The notes beneath the pieces are model-generated. The model saw only the letters and a program-made list of their open reading frames with translations, did not search any database and was not told where the DNA came from. Positions 26,657-38,316 of a DNA stretch of 64,000 bases are shown piece after piece; position 1 is the stretch's first letter, and the number at the start of each line of letters is the position of its first letter. The stretch comes from an uncultured Sphingomonadaceae bacterium. Its GTDB lineage: Bacteria > Pseudomonadota > Alphaproteobacteria > Sphingomonadales > Sphingomonadaceae. The stretch covers positions 496,001-560,000 of the forward strand of contig CANLUL010000001.1 of the NCBI GenBank assembly GCA_947494305.1. The letters are read 5' to 3'. The translations under genes were made by a program, and so were the position numbers.

Positions 26657-26719
26657 CGTCGTGAGAATATCATTTAATTCAAACATTTCAATGTCATAAT
26701 AGAAGGTAAAAAAATATAT

Positions 26720-26734
26720 GTTCTTCCCTTGTTC
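26720..26734. promoter_or_regulatory. LexA (SOS) box of recA
   Basis: Exact GTTC-N7-GTTC direct repeat, the alphaproteobacterial LexA recognition pattern, 76 bases upstream of the recA ATG. Its second half overlaps the -35 hexamer of the promoter listed next, so repressor binding would block transcription. An additional 6-base palindrome (TTGTTC/GAACAA, 26729-26745) overlaps it. Confidence 0.88.
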
Positions 26735-26757: not shown

Positions 26758-26809
26758 ATGTTCCTCATTGATTGCAATGACAGAAACATTTAGCGAAGGG
26801 GACAGGCAA

Positions 26810-27895
26810 ATGGCTACCAATCTAAAAGTAGTAGAATCGGAAAATCAATTGAATTCATCTGACAGGCAGAAGGCGCTCGACGCTGCATTGGCGCAAATTG
26901 ATCGCGCTTTCGGAAAAGGCTCGGCAATGAAACTCGGTTCGCGTGAAGCGTTAGAGATCGAAGCTATCTCTACCGGTTCCTTGGGACTGGATATTGCATT
27001 GGGTATCGGGGGATTGCCTAAAGGACGCGTCATCGAAGTTTATGGGCCGGAAAGCTCCGGTAAGACCACGTTGGCTTTGCATGTTATTGCTGAAGCGCAA
27101 AAAAATGGCGGTACTGCAGCTTTTGTTGATGCAGAGCATGCGCTTGATCCGGTTTATGCAAAGGCACTTGGTGTTAATACCGATGAGTTGATTATCTCTC
27201 AGCCTGATACCGGTGAGCAGGCATTGGAAATAACCGATACTTTGGTGCGTTCGAACGCGATTGACATATTGGTCGTTGATTCGGTTGCCGCATTGGTTCC
27301 ACGCGCAGAAATTGAAGGCGAAATGGGGGATACCCATGTTGGCCTACAAGCCCGTTTGATGAGTCAGGCGCTTCGTAAGCTAACCGGTTCGATCAGCCGC
27401 TCCAAGTGCATGGTTATCTTCATCAACCAGATTCGGATGAAAATTGGCGTGATGTATGGCAGCCCAGAGACCACGTCTGGCGGTAATGCACTGAAATTCT
27501 ATGCTTCGGTGCGCCTTGATATTCGCCGTACCGGCCAGATTAAGGAACGTGACGATATTGTCGGTAACTCTACCCGTGTCAAAGTGGTCAAGAACAAGGT
27601 GGCTCCACCGTTTAAGCAGGTTGAGTTTGATATCATGTATGGGCTGGGTATTTCCAAAGTTGGCGAGATTATCGATCTTGGTGTTAAAGCTGGAGTGGTC
27701 GAAAAATCAGGCTCATGGTTCTCTTATGACTCCATCCGCATTGGGCAGGGACGGGAGAATAGTAAACGCTATCTGTTGGAAAACCCGGAAATCATGGAGA
27801 GACTGGAAAAGCAAATTCGCGGTGAACAGGAAGAAATCGCCGAGGAAATGATGACTGGTCCCATTGGCAAAGCTGATGATGGAGATGATTCTTAA
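26810..27895 (+). CDS. recA: Recombinase RecA
   Basis: Strand-exchange ATPase of homologous recombination and co-protease for LexA self-cleavage. The start is set at the ATG at 26810, 8 bases after GAAGGGG, giving 361 residues; upstream in-frame codons (TTG 26768, ATG 26777) would add an atypical N-terminus. Seen: [20 protein letters not shown], Walker [20 protein letters not shown] (from about residue 79), Walker [19 protein letters not shown], and loop 2 near [20 protein letters not shown]. The C-terminus is acidic (KADDGDDS). A LexA box and promoter lie directly upstream. Confidence 0.98.
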
Positions 27896-35305: not shown

Positions 35306-36040
35306 ATGGCAATCGAGAAATATAACAATAAGGGTGTTGGTGAAGCTAAATGGTCTTTCCCGCCGGTTCACCCTGAAGGGCGCAAGTTTGCAGTCATTGC
35401 AGCGGGCATAACGGCGATTTTCGCATTTATGGCTTGGGAAACCTTGGCATGGCCTATGGCAGGTGTCACCGCATGGGTGTTGGCATTTTTTCGCGATCCG
35501 AAGCGTGTAACACCATTGGATGATAAATTTATTGTCGCTCCAGCAGATGGTTTAGTAAATTTGATTACGCCGGTTAAGGCCCCGCCAGAATTGCAAGGCG
35601 ACGGCGGTTTAGGTGATGAAGAAATGTTGCGCGTTTCCATATTTATGAGTGTGTTTGATGTGCATATTAATCGCACGCCGATAGAAGGTACGATTAAGCG
35701 CGTTGCATATATATCTGGAAAATTCCTGAATGCTGATTTGGACAAAGCCAGCGAAGACAATGAACGTCAGCATTTTCTGGTTGAACGCAATGATGGTTTG
35801 AAGATCGGTTTTACCCAAATCGCTGGATTGGTTGCGCGAAGGATTATGTCCTTTGTGAAAGAAGGTGATTTTGTTGCCGCGGGTCAGAGAATAGGTTTGA
35901 TCCGCTTTGGCAGCCGTGTTGATGTTTACCTTCCCAAAGGAACGACACCAAGCGTAGTGCTTGGACAGCGCACAATTGCCGGTGAAACGATTATAGCAGA
36001 AATTGGAACTGCGCGCGAAATTGAAGGTGTTGGCCAATAG
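35306..36040 (+). CDS. psd: Phosphatidylserine decarboxylase proenzyme
   Basis: Makes phosphatidylethanolamine from phosphatidylserine. The 244-residue product is the short, membrane-anchored type. A hydrophobic segment occurs at about 30-60, then [38 protein letters not shown] (conserved His) and, near the C-terminus, the self-cleavage site in [14 protein letters not shown], where the serine of GS becomes the pyruvoyl cofactor. The stop overlaps the GTG start of pssA by one base, so the two consecutive steps of PE synthesis are coupled. Confidence 0.96.
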
Positions 36041-36828
36041 TGGCTGAAAATGATGCCAAGCGTCCCGAGCGGGGCATTTCTTTGAGATCATTTGCACCCA
36101 ATGCCGTGACTGCTCTGGCATTGTGTGTAGGTCTAAGCAGTGTACGCTTCGCGTATCTCGAAAATTGGGTTTTAGCGGCAGGTGCCATTGTTCTAGCCGG
36201 GATATTGGACGGACTTGATGGTCGTGTAGCACGGTTGCTCAATGCGCAAAGTCGATTTGGTGCTGAACTGGATTCTCTTTCGGATGTTATCGCATTTGGC
36301 GTCGCGCCGGCACTAGTCATGTTTTTTTGGTCCACGCAGCATATGCCACAATTCGGATGGATGTTGTCGCTTACAATGGCGGTTGGCTGTGCACTTCGAC
36401 TAGCAAGGTTCAACGCACATATTGATGATGAGGAAGATCAACCTCACAAGTCGGCAGGTTTTCTAACAGGAATACCAGCTCCCGTTGGGGCAGGTCTTGC
36501 CATGCTTCCACTGTATCTTTGGATGATCACCGATCTCGAAATATTCCGGCACTATAGTATCGTCGCACCGTGGATCGTTGTTATTGCATTTTTGCTCATC
36601 TCAAACACGGCAACCTACAGCTGGTCATCCTTGCGCCTAAGAAAGAACATTCGGCTAGAGGCTCTGGCAATAGTAGCTTTGGCAGGCGTTGCACTGATCA
36701 ACAATCCTTGGATCATGTTGACCGGGATTAGTGTTGGCTACCTTATCTTGATCCCATTTAGCATCAGGAGTTATGCTAAAGTTAAGCGGCAGCGGAAAGC
36801 TGAGTTGGTTGTAAGCCGCGATTCTTAG
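36040..36828 (+). CDS. pssA: CDP-diacylglycerol--serine O-phosphatidyltransferase
   Basis: Integral membrane enzyme making phosphatidylserine, the substrate of the upstream gene product. Starts with GTG overlapping the psd stop. The 262 residues contain several membrane helices and the CDP-alcohol phosphotransferase motif in ILDGLDGRVARLLNAQSRFG continuing AELDSLSDVIAFGVAPA (D-G-x2-A-R-x8-G-x3-D-x3-D). The 3' end overlaps the minus-strand small membrane protein gene by 47 bases. Firm identification. Confidence 0.95.
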   Translation: MAENDAKRPERGISLRSFAPNAVTALALCVGLSSVRFAYLENWVLAAGAIVLAGILDGLDGRVARLLNAQSRFGAELDSLSDVIAFGVAPALVMFFWSTQHMPQFGWMLSLTMAVGCALRLARFNAHIDDEEDQPHKSAGFLTGIPAPVGAGLAMLPLYLWMITDLEIFRHYSIVAPWIVVIAFLLISNTATYSWSSLRLRKNIRLEALAIVALAGVALINNPWIMLTGISVGYLILIPFSIRSYAKVKRQRKAELVVSRDS

Positions 36829-37021
36829 CAATAACCTGATGGGGTTTGATCGTCCGCACCTTTAACGGCGGTTGAGCAATAATGGTCGGAGATTCTTCGT
36901 TCAACCTGTTCAACAAAACCTGTGCAATCCGCTCGCGATATCCGAAAAACATCAAGCCAATGACCAGCAGTGAGCCGGTTAGGGCGATAGCGAAGAATGA
37001 AGCGATTGCGAATCCTAGCAT
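36782..37021 (-). CDS. Small single-pass membrane protein under LexA-box array
   Basis: Not recognised as a named family. 79 residues: one membrane helix at about 2-27 (GFAIASFFAIALTGSLLVIG), then a basic amphipathic stretch (YRERIAQVLLNRLNEE), then a Pro- and Lys-rich tail. Support for reality: an ATG with TAGGT upstream, a TTGACA -35 hexamer at 37079-37084 on this strand, and four GTTC/GAAC half-sites immediately upstream at exact 11-base steps. Small SOS-induced membrane proteins such as SidA and DidA of Caulobacter block division, which suggests by analogy a damage-induced division inhibitor; no sequence similarity is claimed. The 3' end overlaps pssA antisense by 47 bases. Confidence 0.72.
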   Translation of the reverse strand: MLGFAIASFFAIALTGSLLVIGLMFFGYRERIAQVLLNRLNEESPTIIAQPPLKVRTIKPHQVIAKNRGLQPTQLSAAA

Positions 37022-37037
37022 GTAAATACCTATCTAT

Positions 37038-37084
37038 GTTCTTTCTATGAACGCACAATGTTCTATTAATGTTCCTCCTGTCAA
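37038..37084. promoter_or_regulatory. Phased LexA half-site array with embedded -35 element
   Basis: Half-sites GTTC at 37038, GAAC at 37049, GTTC at 37060 and GTTC at 37071 start exactly 11 bases apart; 37060-37074 is an exact GTTC-N7-GTTC LexA box identical in pattern to that of recA. On the minus strand a consensus -35 TTGACA lies at 37079-37084, so the array covers the spacer, -10 and start region of the promoter for the 79-residue membrane protein. No good -10 could be picked. Confidence 0.8.
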
Positions 37085-37293
37085 GGAAAATTTTATAGAA
37101 CATAGGTTGTACGCACGATGAATCTTTAAAGTTACAGCACAGCTTACGATTTTTTGGTTGCATTCCAGGCCTCACATCTTTAACGCGCCCTTCATTCCAC
37201 ATGGAAAGCGCTCATACCGGTGCTGATGCCGGCCTTTCAGGTCGTTTGATGTTCTCAGCTTTCCAGAGGCATAACCGGATAAGGAGAAGTACT

Positions 37294-38316
37294 ATGGCGG
37301 CCCCTGTCGTCACTCTACAGCAATTGATTGAAGCCGGAGCGCATTTCGGCCACCAGACCCACCGCTGGAACCCGAAGATGAAACCATATATCTTCGGCGC
37401 CCGCAACAGCGTCCACATTCTTGATCTTTCACAGAGCGTTCCTCTGTTTGCACGAGCATTGGACTTTATTGCCAATGCTGTGTCTTCAGGCGGCAAGGTG
37501 CTCTTCGTTGGCACAAAGCGTCAGGCACAAGAACCTATCGCTGAAGCAGCGCGTATGAGCGGACAGCATTTCGTCAACCACCGTTGGCTCGGCGGTATGC
37601 TTACCAACTGGAAAACTATTTCAAACTCGATTCGCCGGATGAAGACTCTTGAAGAGCAACTTTCTGGTGACATGGCAGGCTTCACTAAGAAAGAAGCTTT
37701 GCAGATGACCCGTGAGCGGGACAAGTTGGAACTGTCTTTGGGCGGTATCCGTGACATGGGTGGAATTCCCGATGTCATGTTCGTAATCGATGCAAACAAG
37801 GAAGAGCTTGCGATTAAGGAAGCCAATGTTTTGGGTATTCCAGTTGTTGCGATCCTCGACTCCAACGTTGATCCTTCCGGCATTGCGTTCCCGGTTCCTG
37901 GTAATGACGATGCGGCACGTGCCATTCGTCTTTACTGTGAATCTGTTGCAGCCGCGGCCACTAAAGGTGGTCAGGATGCAGCCGTAGCATCTGGCAAGGA
38001 CTTGGGCGCGGCAGTAGCTCCGCCGGTAGAAGCGATTGTTTCCAGCGAAGCCAATGCAAGTGCAATGGCATCTGGTGAAGAAGCAGCGGTGGCAGAAATT
38101 GCCGAGAAGGCCGTTGAAGAGAAACCTGCTGAAGAAGCAAAAGCTGAACCTGTTGAAGCTCCTGCTAAGGAAGAGCCAAAAGCAGAAGAAAAACCAGCTG
38201 AAGAAAAAGCACCTGCCAAAAAAGCAGCGGCGAAAAAACCAACGGCCAAAAAGGCTCCAGCTAAGAAAGCTGCGGCCAAAAAGGATGATGACAAGAAAGC
38301 CGACGAAAAGGCCTAA
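37294..38316 (+). CDS. rpsB: 30S ribosomal protein S2 with long low-complexity tail
   Basis: Small-subunit protein S2. The ATG at 37294 follows AAGGAG at ideal spacing; the longer upstream frame is not translated signal. Of 340 residues, the first 225 or so are S2: [72 protein letters not shown] (in pieces). The remaining about 115 are an Ala/Lys/Glu/Pro tail that first alternates acidic and basic patches ([20 protein letters not shown]) and ends in histone-H1-like [20 protein letters not shown]. Standard S2 is about 240-260 residues, so this is an unusual extension. First gene of the rpsB-tsf-pyrH-frr group. Confidence 0.96.

Follow-up and report, generated by a model that had tools for sequence, protein, structure and literature searches.

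What does a small membrane protein do whose promoter carries four LexA-type half-sites at one fixed spacing, and is that array an operator of LexA at all? The gene lies in a stretch of 64,000 nucleotides from an uncultured Sphingomonadaceae bacterium, hereafter the window, where an ORF with its ATG start at 37021 (36782–37021, minus strand) encodes 79 amino acids. Its 3′ end overlaps by 47 bp the convergent gene pssA (phosphatidylserine synthase; 36040–36828, plus strand; NCBIfam TIGR00473, E 9.3e-29), whose score of 100.5 bits is just under the TIGR00473 cut-off of 107. The divergent neighbour is rpsB (30S ribosomal protein S2; 37294–38316, plus strand), assigned by NCBIfam TIGR01011 (E 4.3e-93) and synteny. 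Ahead of rpsB, the Rfam rpsB model RF01815 gives a weak match at 37198–37290 on the plus strand (24.4 bits, gathering 40, E 0.014), and a CATTCCACATGG-like stretch before the gene recurs by eye in several relatives.

The half-site array and its likely repressor

On the plus strand the half-sites are GTTC (37038–37041), GAAC (37049–37052), GTTC (37060–37063) and GTTC (37071–37074), spaced exactly 11 bp apart; on the minus strand, that of the gene, their order 5′ to 3′ is GAAC, GAAC, GTTC, GAAC, and they are numbered here in that direction. The first-pass annotation had reported four half-sites, one per 11 bases, an exact GTTC-N7-GTTC pair and a consensus TTGACA upstream of the array on the gene's strand, and each of these reads as it was described. 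Half-sites 1 and 2 make up a candidate LexA box, GAAC-N7-GAAC (37060–37074, minus strand; the plus-strand GTTC-N7-GTTC pair 37060/37071), placed between a −35 element TTGACA (37079–37084, minus strand, read from 37084 to 37079) and a probable −10 element CATTGT (37055–37060, minus strand). The latter was assigned by eye 18 nt from the −35, shares the last base of half-site 2 and is CATTAA in many relatives. Half-sites 3 and 4 (37038–37052, minus strand), two helical turns from this box, are a putative operator as well; the pair 37038/37049 reads GTTC-N7-GAAC on either strand and is not a canonical box.

The four-fold array is beyond chance, with the phased pattern occurring once in the window and in 0 of 60 first-order Markov simulations of 64 kb. 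Boxes of two half-sites are near chance level (4 in the window versus 1.9 expected), so that one such box carries no weight unless it is conserved. The array had also been proposed to hold two LexA dimers; since half-sites 3 and 4 stand in mixed orientation, which is not a known box, this can only be inferred.

Searching the source genome for GAAC-N7-GAACA gave 31 matches versus 19 for the reversed control, and many of the matches are therefore chance. Some of the 30 loci taken have the motif at a gene start or shortly ahead of it. The genes concerned are lexA, recA, uvrA, radA and pcrA/uvrD, together with those of a cytosine methyltransferase and a radical SAM protein of PA0069 type; uvrA and pcrA/uvrD are truncated at the edge of the locus and fall below the full-length cut-offs. 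Across seven families of the order, the motif was found within about 70 nt upstream of the first domain of lexA in 16 of 17 genomes, the sole miss being L061 (family f8). The array motif also agrees with the alphaproteobacterial LexA box in the available text of published studies (PMC12700426, PMC7987155, PMC3091678), one of which puts the SOS promoters of Caulobacter with only one box at about 97% (PMC12700426), making double boxes notable. As the same motif is shared with lexA, recA, uvrA, radA and pcrA/uvrD of its own genome, we regard the array as very likely a LexA operator, and the LexA control claimed by the first-pass annotation is, with its conserved half-sites, well supported by comparison. 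It is conceivable that a different repressor recognizing the same half-site binds in place of LexA, as the non-canonical orientation of the second pair might indicate, but the motif would then stand by coincidence at the genes just named and, in 16 of 17 genomes, upstream of lexA, and we consider such a repressor highly unlikely.

Two side observations concern other boxes in this genome. The recA gene (about 26768–27895, plus strand) has its own LexA box at 26719–26734 of the window, followed, at most 45 bp from its start, by two more half-sites that are not in 11-bp phase, and a LexA-type box at L036 (G000:C1:213489-213504) lies 25 nt before a cytosine-5 DNA methyltransferase.

Conservation in the genus and spread through the family

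The first-pass annotation had suggested looking for orthologues, and for the phased array ahead of them, in Sphingomonadales. A protein search of 60 relatives found orthologues in 30 of the 32 genomes of the source genus, its own included, and in 0 of the 28 genomes outside it; the two genus genomes without a match are 67% and 73% complete. Group records, covering 16 loci, include Parasphingorhabdus flavimaris, a Sphingorhabdus sp. and an assembly labelled Sphingopyxis. NCBI taxonomy places Parasphingorhabdus in Sphingorhabdaceae, and the wider GTDB family used here (f1) we take to be Sphingomonadaceae. Seven close pairs, which partly overlap because sequences are shared among them, gave dN/dS values of 0.12–0.43. 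Together with the orthologues this rules out a chance ORF, and by sequence comparison the gene is real and conserved. Residues invariant in the genus are M1, L2, F10, I21, M24, F25, Y28, I32, V35, A78 and A79.

The array is kept along with the protein. Half-sites 1, 2 and 4, and with them the candidate box, are intact in 30/30 genus loci, and half-site 3 is GTTC in 25 of the 30 (otherwise three GCTC, one GTAT and one AATC). The distance from the start of half-site 1 to the ATG is 52 nt in 29 loci and 53 nt in the remaining one, and TTGAC followed by the box, oriented towards the ORF, is present in all 30, the −35 element being 9–10 nt ahead of half-site 1. The expected phased array is thus present throughout the genus; beyond it the four-fold pattern gives way to one or more GAAC-N7-GAAC boxes.

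A profile of the 30 genus proteins matched at least 41 of 397 family genomes at E 0.05 (15 of 96 genera), and a second profile of 31 rows matched at least 110 of 396 order genomes at E 0.01 (24 of 84 genera), and 109 of these genomes belong to the source family. The sole genome outside the family, G052 (E 0.005), was rejected for a stop inside the match. Both searches scored the best 14 candidates per genome, so misses are expected. Outside the genus, the profile hits gave 102 loci with 93 distinct proteins, 84 of which have rpsB or pssA in the locus; among order-profile places that had no locus yet, the 60 with the lowest E-values were taken in and the 27 weakest left out, as were 11 such places from the family-profile search. 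Most profile-hit loci contain pssA, a conserved neighbour, and most keep the synteny with psd-pssA.

A box (GAAC-N7-GAAC or GTTC-N7-GTTC) lies at most 250 bp upstream in 81 of the 84 syntenic proteins, compared with 5 of 952 control windows, mostly coding, from the same loci. Since only protein sequences went into the profiles, the box provides a test independent of them. A perfect box is absent from L090, L127 and L130. TTGAC stands just before the box in 62 of the 84. One box is usual outside the genus, with two or more in 22/84, and in 13 of 23 multi-box loci the first two box starts are 21–25 bp apart, a separation of roughly two helical turns. The four-fold array itself was observed in the source genus only. 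In L155 and L157 (genus g99), three GAAC-N7-GAAC boxes precede the small gene, one of them 20–21 nt from the start codon.

Nine distinct proteins have neither rpsB nor pssA in the locus, and five keep the box, suggesting that it belongs to the small gene and not to rpsB. These five look genuine (L088, L160, L171, L184 and L194); L151, L156, L159 and L190 have no box and were excluded, being either second copies or matches interrupted by stops. L156 (G149:C1:2218405-2218611) and L159 (G599:C1:87186-87350) are second, possibly paralogous matches beside the main gene, and lack the Ala-Ala end found in other members (see below) as well as the LexA box.

We also examined the region upstream of rpsB in 40 genomes; of the 41 rpsB matches, G043 lies at the end of a contig and was left out. 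Among 23 family genomes that were negative by profile, 18 have a divergent ORF of 70–111 aa with a transmembrane segment and a box, and 17 of these 18 end in Ala-Ala; no such gene was found beside rpsB in the other five (L250, L256, L259, L262 and L263). In other families of the order no box was found within 1.3 kb upstream of rpsB (0/17 genomes, one with a weak profile match), and class-wide a box was near 1 of the 30 rpsB matches taken as loci, at −1134. The profile itself matched 39 of 385 class genomes, but spread beyond the family was rejected, since only G000 and G145 were convincing and both belong to the source family; the other 40 places had E-values of 4.4e-4 or worse, 29 of them in open frames of more than 150 codons. 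Judged by these comparisons the gene is family-wide and divergent from rpsB. Its members vary greatly in sequence while keeping a single N-terminal membrane helix, conserved along one face, a basic tail and a C-terminal Ala-Ala.

Could the boxes instead regulate rpsB, or be leftovers, with the ORF incidental? They do lie in the upstream region shared with rpsB, and single boxes in the window are about as frequent as chance predicts. Against this, TTGAC and box are aimed at the ORF in 30/30 genus loci and 62/84 others, dN/dS is below 0.5, and the rpsB genes of other families have the near absence of boxes given above. An operator of rpsB was rejected on the five loci that keep the box without rpsB, and we find this explanation scarcely credible.

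Protein anatomy and the C-terminal end

The predicted N-terminal transmembrane helix spans residues 2–27 (36941–37018, minus strand), and in the AlphaFold2 model one helix runs from residue 2 to about 42, with block-mean pLDDT values of 93, 97 and 86 over residues 1–30 and 71 over residues 31–40. The tail is modelled at low confidence (mean 69.2, pTM 0.37). Hydropathy and the modelled helix thus favour the single-pass membrane protein that had been claimed. Conservation along residues 3–36 is periodic with a peak at 96 degrees, and the permutation fraction at 100 degrees is 0.0004 in the genus and 0.0027 in 59 diverse members; for residues 3–28 alone the signal is weaker (0.0074 and 0.024, respectively). 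The conserved helix positions are F10, G16, I21, M24/F25, Y28, I32 and V35. One conserved helix face is as expected of a protein-binding helix, and such a face could bind any membrane protein. Mean net charge is about 0 for residues 1–25 and +5.6 from residue 28 to the end, and by the positive-inside rule the basic tail is predicted to be cytoplasmic.

No convincing family was found for 31 members scanned against Pfam and NCBIfam: at E 0.1, Pfam gave four weak matches (best E 0.011), each in one member only and none of them LysM. PHROG gave no match for 3 members, and a comparison with PDB showed no similarity to any solved protein. Membership in these families was rejected, and the protein represents a new family whose proposed role is of a familiar kind.

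The tail is variable apart from its end, which is often Leu-Arg-Ala-Ala-Ala. The terminal Ala-Ala-Ala (36785–36793, minus strand) is a putative ClpXP-type C-degron whose Ala-Ala is common to diverged relatives: 78 of the 84 syntenic relatives end in Ala-Ala, and 83 have the final Ala. By comparison, Ala-Ala accounts for 28 of 1344 tail dipeptides and ends 4 of 292 other ORFs of at least 200 aa, chosen mechanically from the window and 44 regions (most of them of other families), and 0 of 45 control ORFs inside the window. The ClpX C-degrons tabulated in PMC8138137 end in LAA or VAA or are poly-Ala. The tmRNA of this genome, located on the same contig some 0.7 kb ahead of the window, specifies the tag ANDNEALAVAA, which ends in VAA. 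Turnover by ClpXP through this end would fit a releasable brake, which would need such an end, though the conserved Ala-Ala could serve something else.

A proposed division brake, its rivals and its relatives

We propose that the protein is an SOS-induced membrane checkpoint that acts as a brake on the late divisome and is cleared by ClpXP, a reading to which we assign a probability of about 55% and in which LexA binding, induction, topology, divisome target and ClpXP turnover are inferred. In an undamaged cell, LexA on the box between −35 and −10 would block the promoter, reinforced in the source genus by the second phased pair. Upon DNA damage, RecA would trigger LexA cleavage and the gene would be expressed, and the protein would enter the inner membrane with its short N-terminus outside and its basic tail in the cytoplasm. 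The conserved helix face would then dock on a membrane protein, most likely of the FtsW/FtsI/FtsN septal wall-synthesis complex, and hold division. Once the damage is over, ClpXP would recognize the C-terminal x-Ala-Ala and clear the brake, allowing division to resume.

A LexA-controlled membrane toxin, one that depolarizes or perturbs the membrane and makes damaged cells dormant instead of blocking the divisome, has precedent in TisB and DinQ of E. coli, which are small, LexA-regulated and single-TM according to the sources available. We think a toxin unlikely here, since a one-faced conserved helix, a long basic tail and a conserved Ala-Ala better suit a protein partner and regulated turnover, and an Rfam scan of 801 bp listed no antitoxin RNA. 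Alternatively, the protein might, once induced by SOS, regulate a different membrane enzyme; PssA/Psd in phospholipid synthesis would be one case, and the psd-pssA synteny of most profile-hit loci and the overlapping 3′ ends in the window would point to it. The two genes are convergent and not co-transcribed, however, and the box persists in five relatives whose loci contain neither pssA nor rpsB, making this rather improbable. SulA was rejected as an identity, with PF03846 found in 0 of 12 genomes and the control matched in E. coli.

Returning to the division brake, the first-pass annotation had likened the gene to SidA and DidA of Caulobacter crescentus, and the likeness stands for SidA, which is SOS-induced, but not for the regulation of DidA, which is SOS-independent and hence a poor comparison in that respect (PMC4211646, in the text available). 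SidA is a LexA-controlled small inner-membrane protein, as is predicted here; it has no action on FtsZ assembly, and the alphaproteobacterial LexA box is shared (PMC4211646, PMC12700426). At 29 aa, SidA is shorter than the 70–111 aa found here. DidA, at 71 aa, is a damage-induced division inhibitor with one transmembrane helix, but it is controlled by DriD, whereas the sphingomonad gene has conserved LexA boxes; SidA acts on FtsW and DidA on FtsN (PMC4211646). YneA of Bacillus subtilis, like SosA and ChiZ, is an SOS-induced bitopic membrane protein, again as predicted here; its transmembrane segment binds TM7 of FtsW, and it is rapidly removed by proteases (PMC13396833, in part). In low-confidence models SidA, SosA and ChiZ also sit on FtsW, SidA on the other side of TM7, from which those authors suggest FtsW as a common target (PMC13396833). 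Unlike YneA, which has a C-terminal LysM outside the cell and is turned over by CtpA/DdcP, the sphingomonad protein has no LysM match, a tail predicted to be cytoplasmic and a ClpXP-like end. SulA of E. coli likewise inhibits division under LexA control and has a degradation signal at its C-terminus (PMC8138137 for the degron, in part). It differs in being a soluble FtsZ inhibitor cleared by Lon. The resemblance to TisB and DinQ, also LexA-controlled and single-TM, ends with their being toxins under antisense RNA. They are also shorter than the sphingomonad protein, and we know of no comparable conserved tail end in them.

In Caulobacter, sidA is presumably CC1927, which lies beside dnaE. The dnaE gene is CC1926 (PMC1839093). 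Similar genes were sought in 40 regions reaching at most 10 kb ahead of rpsB, 39 of them from class genomes and one from Sphingomonadales, with dnaE recognized solely by a frame of more than 1050 codons and an FVHLR-like start. On these criteria dnaE was identified in 27 of the 40 regions (26 class, one Sphingomonadales; two short), and the other 13 were not counted. Seven of the 27, all from the class set (L303, L311, L312, L320, L323, L324 and L329), have a LexA box and an ORF of 29–47 aa with one hydrophobic segment 190–400 nt before dnaE; they are alike in layout and several are Trp-rich, so the SidA-type family is perhaps wider than Caulobacter. No such ORF was accepted in 40 Sphingomonadales loci from 39 genomes (24 in-family loci from 23 genomes and 16 from other families). 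L367 alone matched formally, but it resembles the 3′ end of a lolC-like gene and was set aside by eye, as was a box inside dnaE of L361. The seven ORFs are SidA-like by position and size, and profiles gave no match between them and the sphingomonad protein, which differs in being divergent from rpsB and in its basic tail, the ORFs before dnaE having no long one. The two kinds of gene never occur together in the sample, which suggests that the rpsB-divergent gene may have replaced the SidA-type gene.

In the literature searched, which included few subscription papers, no SOS division inhibitor is described for sphingomonads and the gene is undescribed; a Sphingopyxis transcriptome lists SOS genes, and in its available text the small gene is not among them (PMC6472365). 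Our wider proposal, tentative and held at somewhat less than even odds, is that sphingomonads have an SOS division checkpoint of their own, a fast-evolving brake fixed between pssA and rpsB that replaced the SidA-type gene and carries an ssrA-like degron. If so, the brake would be timed by LexA at its birth and by ClpXP at its death, and the SidA-type gene would have been kept before dnaE by some other Alphaproteobacteria. Given the fast sequence divergence, homology alone would miss many members, and position, LexA box and Ala-Ala end together find them. The family would allow two ideas to be tested: that bacteria lacking SulA commonly use a one-helix protein to block the late divisome as an SOS brake, and that such a protein can time its own removal through an encoded ssrA-like end. 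In many sphingomonads, a large group known for pollutant breakdown, a small membrane protein probably pauses division during DNA repair.
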